NCBI GenBank assembly: GCA_031278315.1
Contig: JAITKS010000231.1
Span: 1-44,642 of the forward strand
Reading direction: 5' to 3'
DNA: 44,642 nucleotides
Source: Planctomycetaceae bacterium
GTDB taxonomy: Bacteria; Planctomycetota; Planctomycetia; Pirellulales; Thermoguttaceae
Each line of letters starts with the position of its first letter. Within the stretch, counting starts at the first letter, position 1. The notes under the pieces were generated by a model that saw only the letters and a program-made list of their open reading frames with translations, made no database searches and was not told the origin of the DNA. The translations under genes and the position numbers were made by a program. This document shows positions 362 through 43,228 of the stretch, one piece after another.

Positions 362-1657
362 TTATGCGATTTTTGTAACATTTTCTTTTTCTGGTATTGG
401 TAAAATTGTTTCTTGTCCGTAAACTACTGCTTCTGTTATTCGATACGTTACACCATTTGGTAAATCCGGTAACTCATACATTATGTCCAGCATTATTTCT
501 TCAACGATTGATCTTAAACCTCTTGCACCTGAATTTTTTTCTAGTGCTTTTTGAGCAATTGCCCGTAATGCTGCATCTGTAAATTCGACATCCGAGTCTT
601 CCATTTGAAATAAACGTTTGTACTGTTTTACAATTGCATTTTTTGGTTCACTCATAACACGAATCAACGCAGCTTCATCTAATTGTTCTAGTGTAGATAT
701 AACGGGTAAACGTCCTACCAATTCAGGAATTAGACCAAAATGATGAATATCTTCCGATGTTACATTACCCCAATAATTTGATTTTTCTTCTCTTTGTGTA
801 TCTACAGCCGGGTTTGTAAAACCAATAGTTCTTTTTCCCAATCTTTGTCCAACGATTTCTTCCAAACCGACAAAAGTTCCGCCGCAAATAAACAAAATAT
901 TAGTTGTGTCAACGGGAATATAATGCTGCTCTGGATGTTTTCGTCCGCCTTGCGGCGGGACATTTGTTATTGTTCCTTCCAGCATTTTCAGGAGAGATTG
1001 CTGGACACCTTCACCAGAGACGTCCCGCGTTATTGAAATGTTTTGCGAAGTTTTACCGATTTTGTCGATTTCATCAATATAAATTATTCCGCGTTGTGCT
1101 AGTTCAACATCGAAATCTACGGCGTGCAGTAATTTCAGAATTAAATTTTCAACGTCTTCACCAACATATCCGGCTTCTGTCAATGTTGTTGCATCGCCGA
1201 TTGCAAACGGGACATCTAAAATTTTTGCCAACGTTTGAGCTAATAAAGTCTTTCCCGAACCGGTTGGTCCTATTAACATTACATTTGATTTATCTAAAAC
1301 AACATCATGTCCTTCATCTTTGTTAATAAGTCTTTTGTAATGATTATGAACAGCAACGGAAAGCACTTTTTTCGCATGTTCCTGTCCTACAACATACTCG
1401 TTAAGACGATTTACGATTTCACGCGGAGACGGCACCATCGCCAGAGGTTTCGAATTAGAACCCGCATGCTTACGGCGTTCTTGTGTCAGAATAGTTTGAC
1501 AAAGATCAATACATTCGCCGCAAATGTAAACATCACCAGGTCCTTCAACTAGCGGTCCTACATCCCTGTAACTTTTATGGCAAAAAGAGCAAAACGCATT
1601 TTTTCTAGCCGCGCCGCCTTTACCCGATGAGGTGTTGTCATTACGCCCAGAGGACAT
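362..1657 (-). CDS. clpX: ATP-dependent Clp protease ATP-binding subunit ClpX
   Basis: N-terminal C4 zinc finger (CSFCHKS...[10 protein letters not shown]), Walker [16 protein letters not shown], Walker [12 protein letters not shown]-terminal [21 protein letters not shown]. Confidence 0.97.
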
Positions 1658-2180
1658 GTGGTAATTACCTTTCGTTTTCGTGGTTACAATATATTAGTCA
1701 AGTAAGAGATTTCGTCAACTTTCTTACTCCGTCCGATTTATTACGCCGCAAATTACTCGTTATATCTGACACAATAAAACGTAATAAATCAAATCAAATC
1801 AAATCGTCAATTATATTCAAACATCGACATTTACAATTATCTAAAGCGAAACATTTGTAATGCCGTCTTACAACAATTATTGTCATCTATATTTCAAAAA
1901 ACATAACCGAATTTAATATAATTCAAATTCAAATATGTCTGAATTTCATATTACAATTCGTGCATGTTAATAGTTCAATATCAAAACAAAACAATATTAC
2001 GTTGTAATTATATTTGTTGTTTGAAAAATTTTTTCAACTGCTTAAACTTTAATTCAGCGGTATTGTTTGTTTATCTATTTGAAAGCAGACTTTAACGAAT
2101 CACTCGATTCTATTTCAAAAAAATTTATGAGAGTTATCGTTATCATTCTCTACATTATCGTCATTTATTATTTTTTATTT

Positions 2181-2630: not shown

Positions 2631-3258
2631 GTTTAGTTAAATCGGCATATTAAATTAAAGTTGTAAAAAGAACGGCATTATTTAACGATTGTTATTTACG
2701 TTTTCAAATTCTCGATGTTCTTAATATTGCCGTATAAAATTTTATTTCGAGGTAATATATCAGTAGAATATTTGTTTTTCAACTGTTTAAGTTATGAATT
2801 TGAAAACCGACATAATTTTCTTAACAAACAACAAAAATTCAAGTTTGAGTAGTATGGGGAGAGTATTCTTGTTTATTCGAAATTTTCTTGAATGATGAGT
2901 TGCGGTTCTATAATGAAATCAATCGAACTGAATTATAACGATTATAACTATCGCCCCGAGTTAGCTGCATATTCGACATAATCGAAACATTCAGATTTTT
3001 TCCAATTAGATCAAAGATCAAACAACTTAAAAACGAATCAAACAGTTCGATATCAAAATCAAATAGTTGTCCGTTTTAATTTGACAATTCATCCTACCGC
3101 ATATAAGTGCCGTACTATGACAATCGCGATATAAATACGTAAAAGCCTGTTTTCCAATAGTTCAGACAACAGACAACTCGAACCGAAACTTAAAATGCAA
3201 GCGGTTTAAAATGGAAAAATGGTTTCCAATCTAATCTACTTACCAACATTATTTTCTT

Positions 3259-4749
3259 ATGAATAAAATTTTGTTTTTAATATTTTTTGAAATTTTGTTT
3301 TTATTGAATGTCAATTTTAATAGTGAAATTGTTTTTTCACAGAATAGCAACACAATAGTTTATGTCAAAGATCGGTCGTTTTCAATTCCGTTTCAGATTC
3401 GTAATGATAATATGATCGATAAAATCGAAGAAGTTGAATTGCTCGTTTCAAAAGATTACGGAGTACGTTGGTACTCTGTCGGACGTAAACCGATTGATGC
3501 CCGATTCTTTTTATTCGAAACAGATACAGACGGCGAATATTGGTTTTCATTTAGAACCATTACAGCCTCCGGTATGGTGAAACGTTCCTTAAACAATTCG
3601 CCTCAAATTCGTGTTCGTGTTGACACGTCAATATTGAATGCAACACAAAATGTTAACGGCTCAATTGATTCCGCACAAAAAATACGGCATTCAAAAAATC
3701 AAAACGTAACAAACACAATTTCTAACTCGCCTAAACAAATTATCGAAGGTGCTATTCAACCGCCGAAACCAATTACATTCTACAAAGAACAAGAAAAAAA
3801 AATCGCACAATCAAATAACAAAAATAAAATTAATGTTACAAATAATCAGTCAACTCCAAACGAAATTAAAACCGAACAACTCAATTTGTCATTCAACGAA
3901 AAAAATAATCTGAAAAATAACGATGAGCAAAAAGATCAAAATGATCAAAATGATCAAAATGATCAAAAAAGTCTGTTTACCGAATTACCTTTTCCGATTT
4001 TGCCGGATGAGAAATTGATAATGGTCGGAAGTAAAAATGATGATTTAAAATCTGATATAAATGAAAAAAATAATGAGCCGAATAAAATAAGTAAAACAGA
4101 ACGAAAAGCTCTAATTCTAAAAAGATTATTTGACGATTTCGCGGCATTATTCAAAGAATATAATGAAACTGAAAATGAAGTGAATACAATAAACACTATA
4201 AATCAAAGCAATAATCGTAACTCAAATAATGACGTCGTTGCAAACGGCAATTCTACAACTAATTCTATAACTAATTCTGTTAATTCTGTTACGGTTGCGA
4301 ATTTGTCTGAAGAGCCGTCTGCTGTTACGGTAGAAAATGCGGGCAAGATTGCAAGAAATTATGAGTCGGTCAATGTTAAACATGATTCAGATAATATACA
4401 AAATCAAAATCAAATACAAAATCAAAATCGGCAAGAGAGTATAAATCACAAATCAGGTAAAGTGCGGATTGCGGCAGTAACAATGAATGTCGCAACGGAG
4501 CAACATCAGATAATTGTCAAATGGGATTCATCCGATTTATCTGCAACAGGTAATCTGGCAGATATACTACGCGGAGAATCTTCAACCGGACCTTGGCAGC
4601 CAATAGCAATCGGTCTCCCGAACAATGGCGAATATTGGTGGTACTTTTCACCGGAAGACAAAAAGCCGTTCTATCTTATGATTAGAACACGAAACGCTAT
4701 CGATATTATTGGCGAAGACATTACTCAAGCACCAATTACAGTGAAATAA
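3259..4749 (+). CDS. secreted hypothetical protein; two folded-looking ends joined by a long Asn/Gln/Lys-rich disordered linker
   Basis: N-terminal hydrophobic signal; low-complexity centre with DQN tandem repeats; conserved-looking C-terminus. Confidence 0.75.
   Translation: MNKILFLIFFEILFLLNVNFNSEIVFSQNSNTIVYVKDRSFSIPFQIRNDNMIDKIEEVELLVSKDYGVRWYSVGRKPIDARFFLFETDTDGEYWFSFRTITASGMVKRSLNNSPQIRVRVDTSILNATQNVNGSIDSAQKIRHSKNQNVTNTISNSPKQIIEGAIQPPKPITFYKEQEKKIAQSNNKNKINVTNNQSTPNEIKTEQLNLSFNEKNNLKNNDEQKDQNDQNDQNDQKSLFTELPFPILPDEKLIMVGSKNDDLKSDINEKNNEPNKISKTERKALILKRLFDDFAALFKEYNETENEVNTINTINQSNNRNSNNDVVANGNSTTNSITNSVNSVTVANLSEEPSAVTVENAGKIARNYESVNVKHDSDNIQNQNQIQNQNRQESINHKSGKVRIAAVTMNVATEQHQIIVKWDSSDLSATGNLADILRGESSTGPWQPIAIGLPNNGEYWWYFSPEDKKPFYLMIRTRNAIDIIGEDITQAPITVK
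3934..3969 (+). repeat. 9-bp in-frame tandem repeat (GATCAAAAT x4) encoding DQN repeats
   Basis: read directly from sequence. Confidence 0.9.
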
Positions 4750-4898: not shown

Positions 4899-6395
4899 TT
4901 ACTTAATTTTAATAGTTATTTTTCCTTTGTTATCATGTAAGCTGTTGGCGGCATCGTTTATTTTGAATAGTAGTAATCCTGATTTTGTTGGTTGCCATGT
5001 TGTATTTGAACCAATTGTTTTATATTCGAGCGGCAAAAAATTATAATTACTTGCATTGAGAAAATTCGGCATTTGTAAATTTATATCGGGAATTATCATT
5101 GCCTGTAGTTTTCCGATTGGCATTTTTTGATTGTATTTAATCGTAATTCCATCTGGTTCAGACCGCCAAGTATCAGGTTTTTCAGCAAGTTGAAATTTTC
5201 CGCTTGCTGTTAATTTGTATTGTTTTCCTGCTTCTAATTTTAATCCGCTGTTTTGCCAGCCTCGATCGGCATGAATAATTGTGTCGGGAAACAAATTATC
5301 TGTACTATTTTTCGTTACATTATTTGATAATGGACTAAAATCAATTTCAGCACGGTTAAAATCATAATCGTAACAAATATTCTTCTTGAAGTCATTCCAA
5401 TCGGCTTCAAGTTGTAATAGAGCTGTCGAAATATCAACTTTATTTTCACGAGCGATAAGCATGATAAAACGTTTTGCAAAATCAATATTCGAATCTGTCA
5501 ATTTAAATACGAGTTTACGAAATGCTTTACAATAGCGCCGATGATGTTCGCAAAACATTACAAAGCTCCAGCACATTTCATACAATTCAATTTGCTCATG
5601 GGCGGTTTTTTTGTCTAAAGTCAATAAATGACTCAATTCGCTGATATTAATTTTTTGAGTTGTCTCTTTAGTTTTATTTTTGTCATTATTATTTTTGTCA
5701 TTATTTTCGATGATTTTCTTAACAGTCTCAATTCTGCCTAAATTCGGTACTGATTTTGAATCAGTTGGAAACCAACCTAATTTCAACTTGCCGTTTTCTA
5801 ATTTATGAGTTGCTAACATTTCTGCTATACCTTCGCAATACCAAATCGGCATACTTGTACCAAACGCATAAAACATAAACGCATGAACTCCCTCGTGCAT
5901 AAATAAATGACGTTGATAATAACCGCTTTTCTGACGTCTCACCCAAATTTGATTTTGAAACGAATAACCATAACGCAAATCTATTCCATTATTGATAATG
6001 CCGTGCTTACTGAATTTACTTAAATCATCAATCAAAAAAGCTCGAACATGAAATTTATCATATTTAGCGAGTTCGACTTCAAAATATGCGCATAATTCTG
6101 ATACCAACAAATCAAAAATTTGGGGTAAACGATCAACTTCGGTATTCGATTTAATATCGGTGTAAAACGTGATATGTTTTCCTTCGAGTTTACGAATACC
6201 GGATTCATTAAGAAACGCATTCGGCAATTTTTCGAGTTGTTTCCACTTACTTCGCATTTGCCGCCCGGCATTTTCAGCGTCGGAAATTTTTCCTATTTCG
6301 AAATCTATAAACGAGTCGGCGGCTGTCATGTAATTTATCGTTACAAAAAAAGAAATAAACGACAGTACAAAAATTTTTTTCGTATAAAAATTCAT
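4899..6395 (-). CDS. secreted gluzincin-type metallopeptidase-like protein
   Basis: signal-like N-terminus; HEGVHAF (HExxH) followed by WYCEGIAEMLATH with downstream Glu. Confidence 0.7.
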   Translation of the reverse strand: MNFYTKKIFVLSFISFFVTINYMTAADSFIDFEIGKISDAENAGRQMRSKWKQLEKLPNAFLNESGIRKLEGKHITFYTDIKSNTEVDRLPQIFDLLVSELCAYFEVELAKYDKFHVRAFLIDDLSKFSKHGIINNGIDLRYGYSFQNQIWVRRQKSGYYQRHLFMHEGVHAFMFYAFGTSMPIWYCEGIAEMLATHKLENGKLKLGWFPTDSKSVPNLGRIETVKKIIENNDKNNNDKNKTKETTQKINISELSHLLTLDKKTAHEQIELYEMCWSFVMFCEHHRRYCKAFRKLVFKLTDSNIDFAKRFIMLIARENKVDISTALLQLEADWNDFKKNICYDYDFNRAEIDFSPLSNNVTKNSTDNLFPDTIIHADRGWQNSGLKLEAGKQYKLTASGKFQLAEKPDTWRSEPDGITIKYNQKMPIGKLQAMIIPDINLQMPNFLNASNYNFLPLEYKTIGSNTTWQPTKSGLLLFKINDAANSLHDNKGKITIKIK

Positions 6396-6479
6396 ATCAC
6401 ATCAAGAATTGATTTGTTACATTTTAGGGTGAACAGGCAACGATAAGTGAAATTTCAAGTGAGCAATTTACAATTTTTT

Positions 6480-7181: not shown

Positions 7182-7806
7182 TTTTTTTTATAGTATTTTC
7201 CAAAAATTTTAATTTAAATTTCTTTTTGTTTTTATATTTTTAGATATTAGATAATTGTGTAAATTGTGTGTATTTTTGATTGGTATGCAGAAGTACATTT
7301 AATTCAAATAAATTAAAAAACGTTGAAAATAATTTTCAAGATTTTTGAGTGTACAATAAATATTACAATCTGCTAAATTACAATCTTACAATCTGTTAAA
7401 TTACAAATTGTTAAATGGTTATTAATAGTTTTACGTTCCATAAAAAAATTTTGTGAGTAATAAATAAAAGTATAAACAAGGCGAAAAATTTATCACTGTT
7501 AAACACATTGTCAATAGACCGCGAAAAAAAACTTAAAAACTTGTAAATTTGTAAAATAATTTTTTTCTGTACGATAATGTCTGCGGTATGTGTTGACAAG
7601 TTATAAGACAAATCGATAATTGACACCAAAATTTTATTGTCAGTACAATTAAACGTTAATTATTTTTGAACTATTTTTGAACTATTTTTTAAACTATTTT
7701 CAATTTGAATTTTTGGTTTGAATCGTCTGTTTGCCTATCAAAAAAATAGGTTTTGTTAAATTTACATTCGTCCTACCGAAATTCATAGTACAAATTTTTT
7801 TATATT

Positions 7807-10268: not shown

Positions 10269-10417
10269 AGATTAGAGCGTATGCGATACGCCCATTTCGT
10301 GTTTAAAAATTACAAAAAAATTGAAAAACAATTATTCCACTGATATATTACTATTTTTCAAACGTAATGTATAAGCGGAATTTTTGTTTTTCAATTTTTT
10401 TAGAAAGTATAAATAAA

Positions 10418-17028: not shown

Positions 17029-17349
17029 GTTGATTAAATCGTAATATATCAGCAGAATTTTTATTTTTCATTTTGGGGAGTTATGAATTTTAAAACTAAC
17101 CTTGAAACCTTTGAAAAATTCCAATGATATATTAAAAATCGGTTAAGGGCAGGTTTGATAAAAATAAACTTGAATTTGAATCTTTGGGGAGATTCTACTG
17201 AATGTATTATTTATAAAAATTAAATTATTTACTAGCTGTGAATTGAAAATTGAATATCGTGTAAAGTCCGCAAAACAATTTTGCCAATTACAATTCAACG
17301 GACAGATAGATTAACTGATAATTAAACAATTAACTTCAATTAAGAAAAA

Positions 17350-29441: not shown

Positions 29442-29529
29442 AACATAATTATTGTTACAAAAATTGAATAGCTTTCGATATATTTACCTTTTACATTTTG
29501 TAATATATCAGTGAAATAATTTATTGTTG

Positions 29530-29809: not shown

Positions 29810-31072
29810 TTATCTTATCGGATAATTTAACCATACATTGGGATCGGCTTCGTATTTTTTTAGTTCGCTTTCATTTTTTGGCGGAATTAATGGTCGAACA
29901 ATTCTAAAGCCTGTAAAAGGAGCATCCGTTGTCCACCATATACTTTGCGGAATAATTGGGTCTTGCCTTTTCCATTCGGTAACAGAAAATAATCTTGCGG
30001 CAGAACGTAATTTATTTGTATCGTCATCTTCGCAATTTCCGCCGCGTAAAACTTGTCCCAAACCAGTCTGAATCGGAACACTTACAGGATCACTCGAATT
30101 CGACTCGCGATTTGAATACGTGTTTATATCATATTGTTCTAAAACCCATTCTGACAAATTTCCGTGCATATCATACAATCCCCATGCATTCGGTTTCTTT
30201 TGCATCACTCTCTTTGATGTTCCGTCACTGTTGTCAAAATACCATGCGTAATCGCCGATGTTCTTATCGGAATCGCCAAAAGAAAATGCCGTTGCCGTAC
30301 CTGCTCTACAGGCATATTCCCATTCGGCTTCAGTTGGTAAACGATAAAATCGTCCGGTTTGAATTGTTAGCCATTTACAATAAACTTGCGCCATGTACAA
30401 AGTCATTCCGCTTGCAGGATAACCATTTTTTGCGAAATTATCGTAACTGATCGCACTTATAGTATGAGGCGGCGTCGGTGAAGCCATCGCATCTGCTAAC
30501 AATTCACGTTCCGTCCGTTCATTTTGTTTCTTCCGTTTCTCCCTCAATATTTGTAACGCAAACAGACTAAATTCCTGCCACGTTACTTCATGCTCTTCCA
30601 TCCAAAACGGTTTAATTTCAATTTCGTGCTGCGGCGATTCATCTTGATTATGACCCGCCTCCGTTTCCGGACTGCCCATTGTAAATTTACCGCCGGGAAT
30701 CGGTAACATCTTAAAAGAAATCGACGTTCCGCTAATCGTTTCAATATACGGTTTCATCTCTTCAGCCGTAGCCGCCGACGAATCTGGAACCGGAACAGGT
30801 GACTCCAAAAACTCTAATGTCGATTTGAAAAATGGATTATTTCGCAATAAAACTGTTTTATTCGTATCCGTAACTTCCTTGCCCGTTGTGTCAGATTGAT
30901 TCTGATTTTTCGTTACAATAATTTTTGGTGAATCTACAGAAATCGAATCAGCCGAATTACTGCCGCCCCGAAAATCACAACCTAAAATACAAAAAAACAA
31001 AATCAATATCACACAAACTTGTTTAAACATTTTTATTTTCATTTTCATTCTTATTTTCATTCTTATTTTCAT
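29810..31072 (-). CDS. SUMF1/formylglycine-generating-enzyme-like lipoprotein
   Basis: lipobox-like CILGC; MLPIPGGKFTMGSPETEAGHNQDESPQHEIEIKPFWMEEHEVT, RLPTEAEWEYACRAGT, LRGGN. Confidence 0.92.
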   Translation of the reverse strand: MKIRMKIRMKMKIKMFKQVCVILILFFCILGCDFRGGSNSADSISVDSPKIIVTKNQNQSDTTGKEVTDTNKTVLLRNNPFFKSTLEFLESPVPVPDSSAATAEEMKPYIETISGTSISFKMLPIPGGKFTMGSPETEAGHNQDESPQHEIEIKPFWMEEHEVTWQEFSLFALQILREKRKKQNERTERELLADAMASPTPPHTISAISYDNFAKNGYPASGMTLYMAQVYCKWLTIQTGRFYRLPTEAEWEYACRAGTATAFSFGDSDKNIGDYAWYFDNSDGTSKRVMQKKPNAWGLYDMHGNLSEWVLEQYDINTYSNRESNSSDPVSVPIQTGLGQVLRGGNCEDDDTNKLRSAARLFSVTEWKRQDPIIPQSIWWTTDAPFTGFRIVRPLIPPKNESELKKYEADPNVWLNYPIR

Positions 31073-31244
31073 TCTTATTTTTATTATTTGTAAAATTGCT
31101 CTTACTTTAATTTTTCAGTTCGAGTTGTTTACTTACTTATCGAAAATCCGGTTTGACAAAATACTCTCTTGTATCCCCTGATCACCAGTATCACCGAAAT
31201 TAATGTTACGATAAATATATTTGACAAATTCTTTCTATACATAT

Positions 31245-32036
31245 CTATCCTGTTGCAATCACGGCTAACTTTAAATTGTTTACATTTTTATTCGCCCGCT
31301 TGACATCTATTCTAACACCAAAAAATTGCTTGCCCGTTATTGTTAGTTTCGCATCTTCAACATCAACTAAATAAGCGTCAACCGTCGGCAAACGCTCGAA
31401 AACAGGATAAAACGGAACATGAATACTCACCGTTAATTGATTTTCATCAAACTCAACCCGAAAATAACCTTCAAATTTGTCTTCGCCTAATTCAGTCTTA
31501 TGACGAATTATGTGTTGCGTTTTACCAATCTGCCAAATAGAACTCGATAAATTATCAAATTCATCTATCGCTGAATTTTCATTTGCTTGTTCAATATCAA
31601 TATCGATATTACTAACTCTATTTTCAAATACTTCATTCGGCTTGTTGACAATACTTTCTGCTGATTGCTGATAATTTTTGTCAGATTGATTTCTCTCGAT
31701 AAATAATTTTCGTAACCAAAAGTTCCACACAATTTCCGTTACAATAATTATCAATACGTATATCAGAAAAGCATCTGCCTGAAGTTGTACACCAAATCCA
31801 ATTGCAGATAACCAATTACGTCCGCCAAAACTTAAACACGTATCATTAGGTTTCAACAAATGCAAGAAAAGAAAAATAATCGCAACCCAACATCCCATCA
31901 TCGATGCAATACAATAATCGTTACTTCCTACACCCGCCCAAAACCGATTCAATACCGCAAGACACGAAGCCAACCAAAATATAAATTGACCAGTCCAAAA
32001 CAAACCTGTACTAATATTCTTGATTGAAAAAAACAT
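31245..32036 (-). CDS. hypothetical membrane protein
   Basis: N-terminal hydrophobic helices, soluble C-terminus. Confidence 0.55.
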   Translation of the reverse strand: MFFSIKNISTGLFWTGQFIFWLASCLAVLNRFWAGVGSNDYCIASMMGCWVAIIFLFLHLLKPNDTCLSFGGRNWLSAIGFGVQLQADAFLIYVLIIIVTEIVWNFWLRKLFIERNQSDKNYQQSAESIVNKPNEVFENRVSNIDIDIEQANENSAIDEFDNLSSSIWQIGKTQHIIRHKTELGEDKFEGYFRVEFDENQLTVSIHVPFYPVFERLPTVDAYLVDVEDAKLTITGKQFFGVRIDVKRANKNVNNLKLAVIATG

Positions 32037-32098
32037 CTTAAACTGCTCTTACTTGAGTTTCCAGTCTTAACCGCCTGCTGCCTTCCAATAGGAAAAAT

Positions 32099-32122
32099 AG
32101 AGACACAAAGCATTGAGTCTCT
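32099..32122. repeat. AGAGACACAAAGCATTGAGTCTCT hairpin
   Basis: near-palindrome; family member. Confidence 0.7.
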
Positions 32123-32167
32123 ACAAAATTTTTTTTGTAATACCAATTACATTTTAAAATTCGTTTT

Positions 32168-32902
32168 TTATTTTACGCTTGCATTATTTTTTTTGATGTC
32201 GATTATTCTTAAAATTACTTTGTTTGAAGCATGATTGTCTTGTAAGCTGCAGATATAATCTAAATCGAATCCGATTAATATTAGGAACAATAAATCACCT
32301 AGCGGCATTGTTGGCAGATGGTTTTCATCCCATACATCGTGCGGCACTTTGTTAAGATTGTTCCACTCGAACTGATGTCTTTGTGCTAAATCGCTTAACA
32401 CTTTTTTAGGTTCACTCAAGATTGGTAATTTAATTGTAACCGGCTTTTTCAATATTGATTGAGCTGCCGATAACGCCGTTTTGTTTTTTGCGTTACGAAT
32501 ATCAGTTTGTGAAATAAATTTACGATGTTCAGCAAGTAAGTGCGGAAAAATATTTCGCATCTCGTCAAGTCCAATATAAACAACCGACACGAAGAAATAA
32601 CAATATAATCCCGACGAATCTGTAAGTTTCTGAAAAACTTCTCTTACTTTTTTATTCTCTGCTTGAATACTTATTTTCGTCGATGGATCAATACGTCTGT
32701 CAATAAAAACAGAGACATTGCAGCTCTTCGCAATTTGCATCAACGAATCGCGCAACGGTACGTCATGAATTTTCACACTAATAACACTGTCAAAATTTGC
32801 TTTAGCTAAACTTAAAGTTGACGGCAAAAATAATAACAAAATTACAAGTATAAAAATTTTGTATCCATTTAACAGATTTTTATAATGTTTGTATTCATAC
32901 AT
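32168..32902 (-). CDS. secreted protein with secretin/TonB short N-terminal (STN)-like domain
   Basis: SVKIHDVPLRDSLMQIAKSCNVSVFIDRRIDPSTKISIQAENKKVREVFQKLTDSSGL; start placed at internal MYEYKHY because the upstream leader-like element overlaps the longer ORF start (32962). Confidence 0.65.
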   Translation of the reverse strand: MYEYKHYKNLLNGYKIFILVILLLFLPSTLSLAKANFDSVISVKIHDVPLRDSLMQIAKSCNVSVFIDRRIDPSTKISIQAENKKVREVFQKLTDSSGLYCYFFVSVVYIGLDEMRNIFPHLLAEHRKFISQTDIRNAKNKTALSAAQSILKKPVTIKLPILSEPKKVLSDLAQRHQFEWNNLNKVPHDVWDENHLPTMPLGDLLFLILIGFDLDYICSLQDNHASNKVILRIIDIKKNNASVK

Positions 32903-33082
32903 GATCTGATCTGATCTGATGACTGATAATTTGATGATCTGATTAGTTTTAAACTTAAACAACTCTTACTTAAATTTTCGTTTTGATTCGCTTGCCTATC
33001 GAAAAAGCAGACTTTCTAATGAATAGTTTTGTGCCGCCGAAAATCATAATGCAAGTTGTACAATGATACATTACCATTGAAA

Positions 33083-37091: not shown

Positions 37092-37569
37092 TTTGTGATT
37101 TGTACTGTTCGTTTTCTATAATCTGAACAATTAGAAAAGACGATTAATGAGTACGGTTCGTACTATAAATTTCGCAATACGTAAGATAATTATTAACGTG
37201 TATTCATTAAAACCTGCTTTTGATAAATAAGCAGGTAAGAGTACCAAAATTTAATGTATAAACCGATTATATTCAAAAATCTTTTTTCTGACTTTTGCAA
37301 TTTTTTAAGAGACTTAAATAATTTTGATCGAAATTATAAAGTGAACAGTTTAAAATTTTTCCTTTATGTGATTATGTTCCTTATGCGTTCAAATATTTTT
37401 TTTCATGCCGTGCGTACGTTTTTTTGTACGATATTGACATCGACGCAACTCAACAAGGTTACGATAAGAACGCTATCGAAGGTTTGCGGGTAATGATTTC
37501 ACGCTATGAATAAACAGTAATCATACTGCCAATGCTTACCTACGATGACAACGAGGCGGGGATTATAAC

Positions 37570-37623
37570 CGATCTATTTATTGTGTCAATAACTCCCGAT
37601 CTATTTATTGTGTCAATAACTCA
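37570..37623. repeat. 27-bp tandem duplication (cgatctatttattgtgtcaataactcc x2)
   Basis: two adjacent, near-identical units. Confidence 0.9.
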
Positions 37624-37841
37624 TTATACATATTCATTGTTCAACAGGTAGTTTTTTTATTTTGTGATATTTTGTATCAAAAAATATTTTATTCTTTGTG
37701 CTATGAATTTCGGCGGTATGTGATATAAAGACTTATTCAATAAAATTTGTTTTCCGATTATTAGATAATCATGCGGCTCGAACTGAAAATTTAAGTGCGG
37801 GCAATTTACAATATTTTTCTTTTTTTTTAATATAAATTTTT

Positions 37842-38813
37842 ATGGATTCATTATTGATAAACGTATCGCGTCGGGCGTGGTTTGGTTCGATGTTGTTTCA
37901 TTTAGTTTTGGTTTTAATTTTACTACTATTATTTCGATTTCAGCCGGAACGTGAATTGTCGTCTGAAGGACGTAACGCTGCCGGCGGAATATTGATCAAA
38001 CAGATAAATAATAACGCCGCTCAATACAGCGGAGAAGAAGGATTGATATTTTCTGAAACAAATGAATCTCAATCTGAAATCGAAATAGACAAAACATTAA
38101 CCGGTCGATTTACAGATTTTTCACCTTTGCCGCCGCCGGACAAAATCGGTGTTGGTAGAAATATTAATGCAGATTCTAATATTGGATTATTTGAAGCTCA
38201 TCTTCCAATTAATAATCAAGCGAATTCTATTTATTCTGGTGCGGACAGTTCAAGCGGATTGTATGGAGACGGAAAAAAAAGACTTCGCGTTTTTGCTTTA
38301 CAGGCGGAGGGTAACAATTTCGTTTTTGTTTTTGATAAGTCTGGAAGTATGAACGAGCGGGGCGGAACTCCTTTTAAAGCGGCGAAATCGGAATTAATAA
38401 GGAATATTCAAGAATTAAATAACGAAAAATGTAAATTCAACATAATTTTTTATAACGATGAAATAAATCAATTGTGTGAAAACGGAATGCTTGAAACTAC
38501 AGAATTAAATTGTAAGAATGCAATTAATTTTGTGTATTCAGAAGTTGCTCGCGGAAATACAAAACATTTTGAGCCGTTGGTTAAAGCAATAAAACAAAAA
38601 CCGGACGCAATTTTTTTTCTAACAGACGGCGACGACAACAACGCATTGACACAAACGCAACTTAACGAAATAAAACGTATAAATCAGTTAATCAAAGTTC
38701 AGATTAATGTTATTCAATTTGGAGTAGGAAAATATCGCGAATCAGAATTTCTGATACAGCTAGCCAAAGACAATAATGGTTTATACTCCTACGTAAACGT
38801 TGATAATTTATAA
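37842..38813 (+). CDS. membrane-anchored von Willebrand factor type A domain protein
   Basis: N-terminal TM; NFVFVFDKSGSMNERGG (MIDAS DxSxS), DAIFFLTDGDDN. Confidence 0.88.
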   Translation: MDSLLINVSRRAWFGSMLFHLVLVLILLLLFRFQPERELSSEGRNAAGGILIKQINNNAAQYSGEEGLIFSETNESQSEIEIDKTLTGRFTDFSPLPPPDKIGVGRNINADSNIGLFEAHLPINNQANSIYSGADSSSGLYGDGKKRLRVFALQAEGNNFVFVFDKSGSMNERGGTPFKAAKSELIRNIQELNNEKCKFNIIFYNDEINQLCENGMLETTELNCKNAINFVYSEVARGNTKHFEPLVKAIKQKPDAIFFLTDGDDNNALTQTQLNEIKRINQLIKVQINVIQFGVGKYRESEFLIQLAKDNNGLYSYVNVDNL

Positions 38814-38887: not shown

Positions 38888-39196
38888 ACATAGTAATCTC
38901 TTTTTTTGTAACGAAAAAGATAATCGGTCCCGCAAAAAAATAAATTATTCCGCTGATATATTACACGATTCTTTTAATTTATTATTTAAAAATCCTGTCA
39001 ATCTTGTAATCTTGTAATCTTGTCAAAAAACAAAACTAAAGATGCGGTCGAGACTACTGCGTTTTCGATAACAATCATTAATTATTTCACCGATATATTA
39101 TAAATTTCGTTTATTTCGTTATTTTGAGTGTTTCGTATTTCTCAAAAAATCTTTTCTGCGGTTAAGAAATAAATCTGAATAGTTACAAAGAATTTT

Positions 39197-39791: not shown

Positions 39792-39835
39792 AAAAAACTC
39801 CTCATAAATTAAAGGTTAATGTTAATGTTAATGGT

Positions 39836-39972
39836 AACTTCTAAAAACTAATATTAGAAGGAACGCAGGCGTCTCACCCGCACTATTTTTGTACAAGAAA
39901 CGTCTAAATATGCTGTCGAGACGACCGCGTTCTTTCTACAATAAATTTTTACATTAGGTTTTTAGAAATTCA
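39836..39972 (-). repeat. nested-hairpin MITE-like element (copy 4) with terminal inverted repeats
   Basis: aacttctaaaaact ... aggtttttagaaatt ends; GGAACGCAGGCGTCTC...GAGACGACCGCGTTC core. Confidence 0.8.
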
Positions 39973-40128
39973 CTAATGTTAAAGTTAAAGTAAATGTTAA
40001 ATATTCTACAAGACATTCAAAATATTTCAGTAAAAATTTTTGAAATTGCTCCCGCTTGAATATTCGATTTTCGTTGTTTCTTTTTCGTTACAAAAAATAA
40101 AACTGAATTGCCGATGTGTATATTTTTT

Positions 40129-43005: not shown

Positions 43006-43228
43006 GCTTTTCAATTTTATTTTTTGTAACAAAAAACCGAATTGACAAATGTGAAAAATATAATACGCACATCGTATAATGACTATTCGGCAATTTAAGA
43101 GCGTATTCAGTAAAGTCTGTTTCACGTAAGTAAGCAGACAGCTCGAAACCGAAATTCAAGTGTGAGTAGTTTAAATATATACATTCCTTGAACGGTTATA
43201 ATACTCATTTATTTTTTTATGAATAATT

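Follow-up and report, generated by a model that had tools for sequence, protein, structure and literature searches.

The stretch of DNA analysed here (44,642 nt; the window) contains a block of sequence that recurs close to the start of several genes. A sequence-only reading had listed ten copies or part copies of this block, and had interpreted it as a shared 5' UTR or promoter module. We constructed a sequence-only profile from 14 copies and searched the window with it, accepting matches at E<0.01. All ten listed copies were recovered with small boundary shifts, showing that the repeated block is real. The three consensus blocks given in the earlier reading each had 4 matches in the window, against 0.03, 0.06 and 0.83 expected from dinucleotide shuffles. 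A marginal eleventh match was seen on the plus strand at 6366-6472 (E=0.007).

The best-preserved copy in the window (43068..43177, plus strand; 80.6 bits, E=3e-24) is positioned in sense orientation upstream of a gene encoding a UXS-like NAD epimerase (43229). Sense copies were also found upstream of the vWA gene at 37842, assigned by Pfam PF00092 (37695..37810, plus strand; 66 bits), the SUMF1/FGE-sulfatase gene at 31072 (31091..31216, minus strand; 56.8 bits) and the CDS at 3259 (3107..3212, plus strand; 46.3 bits). The copy at 32953..33056 (minus strand; 67.7 bits) is sense and upstream of the minus-strand ORF 32168-32962, and overlaps its annotated TTG start. A degraded copy consisting of the 3' half, with the 5' half mostly replaced (32036..32159, minus strand; 26.1 bits), abuts the start of a membrane-protein gene (31245-32036, minus strand). 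Not all copies are placed as sense leaders, and two are antisense to their neighbours: 7686..7794 (minus strand; 49.6 bits) lies just upstream of a beta-helix/GH141-like gene (7807, plus strand), and 37152..37267 (plus strand; 36.7 bits) is situated between the promoter of tsf and its start (37091, minus strand). Nor did leader-like proximity extend to a truncated copy that has lost its 5' part (2030..2111, minus strand; 24.5 bits), or to a weak 3' half (40039..40101, minus strand; 14.5 bits, E=0.001). The former is ~370 nt upstream of clpX (362-1657, minus strand; identified by NCBIfam) and the latter ~250 nt upstream of a gene, each on the strand of the gene concerned.

The window contains other features of interest. 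The tsf promoter (TTGACA...TATAAT; 37569-37616, minus strand) is conserved in three congener contigs, and its -35 side is tandemly duplicated in the window, where TTGACACAATAAATAGATCGG occurs twice. Repeats of GTAATATATCAGTGGAAT are present in both orientations at 63-80, 2752-2769, 10334-10351, 10364-10381, 17041-17058, 29500-29517, 38947-38964 and other positions. In the genome of the window, the same repeats immediately precede an IS630-type (DDE_3) transposase (locus L327), and because of this adjacency they are probably IS630-derived MITE ends. A separate repeat of ~140 bp (39832-39974) has been amplified many times in the congener G019 at 88-91% identity, and is enriched between convergent genes in the genome of the window.

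The family has a length of ~112 nt and the consensus ATACGCATCGTACTATGAATTTCGGCGATACAAATGCGTATTCAGTAAAACCTGCTTTCCGATAGATAAGCAGGCAGCTCGAACCGAAAATTCAAGTGAGAGCAGTTTAAAA. Both edges are sharp, the left one being marked by a conserved TA followed by TACGC and the right one by GTTTAAAA; past the two ends only AT-rich flank is found. Folding of the consensus is better than that of shuffled sequences (z -2.96) and gives a long, imperfect stem that encloses an inner hairpin. The outer hairpin, formed by TCGTACTATGAATTTCGG and CCGAAAATTCAAGTGAGA, is imperfect and extends nearly tip to tip, and a second hairpin (CCTGCTT / AAGCAGG) caps it. In a few copies (L024 at ~1360-1500, and L003), an expanded tandem tract of GGCAGGC/AGACAGAC type stands in place of the hairpin arm and runs into the 3' core.

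The genome of the window (G000) is a fragmented MAG of 4.03 Mb in 473 contigs. The 3' core had 203 matches in this genome (108 forward and 95 reverse, at <=3 mismatches) against 0 for a reversed-pattern control, and a profile search recovered at least 150 copies. Within the 1.11 Mb examined we located 244 copies, a density that is biased upward because about half of the contigs had been picked for their strong copies; the choice of contigs should leave the orientation statistics unbiased. Fourteen of 20 congeners carry copies, with the number per congener genome ranging from 0 to >60, and outside the genus the search returned only two marginal matches, both in G036. A strict 24-base core had 0 matches in 84,980 other species genomes (a set from which the genome of the window and those close to it may be missing) and 0 in viral contigs, and the phages and plasmids searched yielded no copies. 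The search of genome and relatives, which the earlier reading had put forward as a check, gave hundreds of copies, confined to a single genus apart from the two marginal G036 matches. The nearest named relatives of the window EF-Ts belong to the Planctomycetaceae bacterium MAGs Im510_bin130, Nm470_bin17, Ncb351_bin65 and Gsp477_bin102, which we take from their isolate labels to be termite-gut metagenomes. The family is confined to a single genus of uncultured, presumably termite-gut, Planctomycetota.

Identity to the consensus was ~0.75-0.85 for most copies (about 0.80), with a pairwise identity of 0.70, and the divergence of copies is star-like. The substitutions were mostly G to A (23%) and C to T (19%), compared with a total change of ~14% at A or T. 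Decay was equal in sense and antisense copies, and equal near to and far from start codons, and certain positions were conserved beyond what base composition alone predicts.

The sequence-only reading had proposed covariation among the copies as a test. In an alignment of 150 G000 copies made without structure, no Watson-Crick column pair rose above the null in an APC-corrected G-test, and the top-scoring column pair was T-T, with a score inside the shuffle range. The covariation score was 0.138 (0.136 for shuffles), pairs altered on both sides numbered 15 against 15.5 expected, and base pairs were retained no oftener than independent decay predicts. RNAalifold gave no structure on the first MAFFT alignment. 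An RNA structured in situ was therefore rejected on the grounds of within-genome covariation, an outcome that the earlier reading had named as refuting its proposal. In Rfam, the window had no match at gathering score, and the sole match of a consensus-like copy at E<1 was a chance-level U4.

Several loci bear on how the copies came to their present positions. One copy (L071:15113-15225) is nested in, and interrupts, another dispersed repeat, and the uninterrupted host repeat is found in L086 and elsewhere; a poly-T tract at the nested junction obscures the exact target. Matching flanks of k=2-9 that might represent a target-site duplication were not in excess in 97 copies, a test whose power is limited by the AT-rich context, and target-site duplications are not made by all mobile families. 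The orthologous intergenic region of the UXS copy lacks the element in three congeners. In G020 a counterpart of the SUMF1 copy precedes the orthologous gene, while G018 has merely a ~28-nt gap there, and the 3' half that makes up the membrane-protein copy is also present upstream of the G020 orthologue, with a remnant in G018. No copy was found upstream of tsf in the G018 or G020 contigs, which carry the same tsf promoter. Among 46 orthologous gene pairs, drawn from contigs that were selected by gene, the site was occupied in both genomes for 1 pair, in G000 only for 15, in the congener only for 4 and in neither for 26 (Fisher p=0.64). An in-place inversion at C5 between G008 and G000 was considered and rejected: the alignment puts the two copies at different positions, and they are thus independent insertions. 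A 3' end of the element, in decayed form, directly precedes some full copies (window 43034-43063, L153 and L158), which suggests tandem insertion or duplication.

Placement relative to genes was analysed using simple home-made gene calls as gene boundaries, and the upstream and sense bias is real in G000. Across 1.13 Mb, 109 copies were assigned to tandem intergenic regions, 61 to divergent ones and 2 to convergent ones. Convergent regions were avoided (2 copies against 14.3 expected, p=8e-5), and in tandem regions sense copies outnumbered antisense copies by 72 to 37, or ~2:1 (p=0.001). At a matched intergenic length of 250-500 nt, 1 of 31 convergent regions was occupied, compared with 29 of 129 tandem regions. 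Five other G000 repeat families were without orientation bias, and all but one of them lean to convergent regions. In a sample of 32 copies from congeners, 6 were convergent against 6.3 expected, indicating no avoidance, and sense copies were still ahead by 14 to 6. Copies in tandem regions showed no proximity to start codons, their positions being uniform (KS p=0.6). Some arrays hold copies of the same orientation, and one 13-kb stretch of L075 (G000:C118, 2663-15386) contains roughly twelve copies, every one of them on the minus strand; one copy of this cluster recurs at the orthologous place in G007. The G000 pattern is unusual, given that enrichment between convergent genes has been read by Croucher et al. 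as a mark of parasitic repeats (PMC3049150). The promoter-side intergenic bias of the ~112-nt family may reflect either insertion preference or retention.

The upstream and sense bias, together with the fold of the consensus, is in keeping with the first proposal for the block, a leader RNA common to many genes that would act in cis from the 5' UTR in the manner of a riboswitch or attenuator. Against this stand the 150 divergent copies without covariation and without an Rfam family, the uniform positions within tandem regions, and the antisense third of the tandem copies, which is conserved equally. The genes concerned are functionally unrelated and the element is not common to their orthologues, and we regard a leader RNA as very unlikely.

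Promoter and coding functions were also assessed. No recurrent sigma-70 promoter-like position was found on either strand of 144 copies, and no promoter hexamers were found at fixed flank positions. A short conserved peptide or uORF was rejected, as an ATG was present in 99 of 150 copies and an open frame of >=16 codons in 50 of 150; the subfamilies of G018 and G020 no longer have the ATG. Of the original interpretation as a shared 5' UTR or promoter module, the upstream bias and the ~2:1 sense preference survive, so that it is supported in part, but neither covariation nor a recurrent sigma-70 site was found, and the uniform tandem positions, the equal decay of sense and antisense copies and the lack of shared occupancy upstream of congener orthologues do not support it. 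A dispersed mobile repeat accounts for the pattern better than a conserved leader does.

It could alternatively be supposed that the block is a regulatory or promoter module acting at the DNA level, which was dispersed by transposition and retained where useful, as in Correia elements. Such a module would account for the convergent avoidance and the sense preference, in which the family differs from other G000 repeats, and for conservation that is uneven by position. However, a recurrent sigma-70 site is lacking both within the element and at fixed positions in its flanks, sense and antisense copies have decayed equally, the element has not been retained upstream of orthologues, and convergent avoidance was not reproduced in the 32 congener copies. 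We consider this explanation unlikely.

Each species has its own consensus. Most of these consensuses form a full-length hairpin (z about -2 to -2.7), which in G000, G018 and G020 takes in nearly the whole element; the G004 consensus hairpin is weak (z -0.6) and the G019 consensus folds differently. A joint fold of six consensuses contained 26 pairs, two of them with compensatory change, one of which is a U-A to C-G change in the inner hairpin of G018. The hairpin is maintained in source copies and not in dispersed copies, and we therefore infer that it matters for mobilization. At two sites common to G000 and G020, each copy resembles the subfamily of its own species. This is also what would be expected of a DNA-level module that tracks a trans-factor. 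A further possibility is a mobile hairpin element that selectively inserts, or is selectively retained, in sense orientation within promoter-side intergenic DNA, and whose species-specific consensus shifts in step across copies, shared sites included. It would be a regulatory module that was dispersed by transposition and co-evolves with a factor acting in trans; we judge this to be quite unlikely.

The search for a partner transposase concentrated on several families. Y1_Tnp genes were identified in G000 (one) and in the four congeners tested (one to three each). An element copy is located ~450 nt away from the Y1 gene of G000, within chance given the copy density, and no significant copy was found alongside the Y1 loci of congeners. 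No IS110 was found in G000, and its DDE genes are relics only (one DDE_Tnp_1 and nine DDE_3, IS630). No convincing linkage of the element to Y1, IS110, DDE_Tnp_1 or DDE_3 was seen, and the split pairs that might represent a longer autonomous form with separated ends were weak and unconvincing.

The Y1 genes, the hairpin architecture and the same-orientation copies of some arrays would accord with REP/REPIN repeats that depend on a RAYT (Y1) transposase for movement, or with recombination sites resembling integron attC. The chance-level distance to the G000 Y1 gene and the lack of copies beside congener Y1 genes argue against the former, as does the absence of a GTAG/CGTC tag. In addition, REPs favour unidirectional and convergent regions (PMC3733652), the opposite of the ~112-nt family. 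For attC, no integron integrase (IntI) scored above cut-off, and the consensus has no attC core, with no GTTRRRY/RYYYAAC in place. We regard both origins as most improbable.

Comparison with known repeat systems revealed partial resemblances. Correia/NEMIS elements of Neisseria are also non-autonomous, at ~107-155 bp, with hundreds of copies, a long hairpin and a TA end, and have been mapped predominantly immediately upstream of genes (PMC2229807, PMC10969869). Correia elements have clear 24-bp terminal inverted repeats, a TA target duplication and carried sigma-70 promoters, whereas the ~112-nt family has imperfect repeats, and neither a duplication nor a recurrent promoter-like site was found in it. 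BOX, RUP and SPRITE of Streptococcus pneumoniae likewise constitute several small base-paired families in one genome that proliferated earlier and are now slow (PMC3049150). Unlike the ~112-nt family, which is depleted between convergent genes in G000, all three are over-represented there (PMC3049150). REP/REPIN sequences with RAYT are high-copy intergenic palindromes, known in Planctomycetes too (PMC3733652), but measure 20-40 bp rather than 112 nt, carry the GTAG/CGTC tag and lie between unidirectional or convergent genes. ERIC/IRU is an imperfect intergenic palindrome of ~100-130 bp with an orientation-dependent effect on co-transcribed genes (PMC2229807); it comes from an unrelated organism, and the TA duplication reported for ERIC was not seen in our family. 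The ~112-nt family belongs to no named family, and is a new family of mobile-repeat type, with Correia-like placement without promoters.

The sharp ends, the one nested copy, the turnover of sites, the star-like decay and the species-specific consensus hairpins lead us to conclude that the block is probably a ~112-nt non-autonomous, MITE-like palindromic mobile DNA element that has undergone past bursts in the genus. The family is small, non-coding and of high copy number, with discrete ends, filled and empty sites, and a hairpin in G000, G018 and G020, as in MITEs. Under the MITE-like reading, a few source copies per species would be mobilized in trans by a putative transposase, with the hairpin presumably required for mobilization. 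The element would enter AT-rich intergenic DNA as a discrete unit, and each inserted copy would then decay independently by G/C to A/T drift. The promoter-side and sense preference could arise from an insertion preference, for example for negatively supercoiled or melted DNA, and/or from selective retention. Several observations sit less easily with the MITE-like reading. The convergent regions avoided in G000 ought to tolerate a repeat that is purely parasitic, as they do the other families of the genome, some positions are conserved beyond base-composition prediction, and neither a linked transposase (among the Y1, IS110 and DDE genes checked) nor a target-site duplication (97 copies) was found.

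Judging by its copy density, this previously undescribed family may occupy a few per cent of the genome in a termite-gut planctomycete, and it would mislead searches for leader RNAs in such genomes. The coexisting G000 families, which mostly lean to convergent regions as expected of parasites, provide a controlled contrast with the ~112-nt family, which avoids them; through this contrast, the choice between insertion preference and retention upstream of genes becomes testable.
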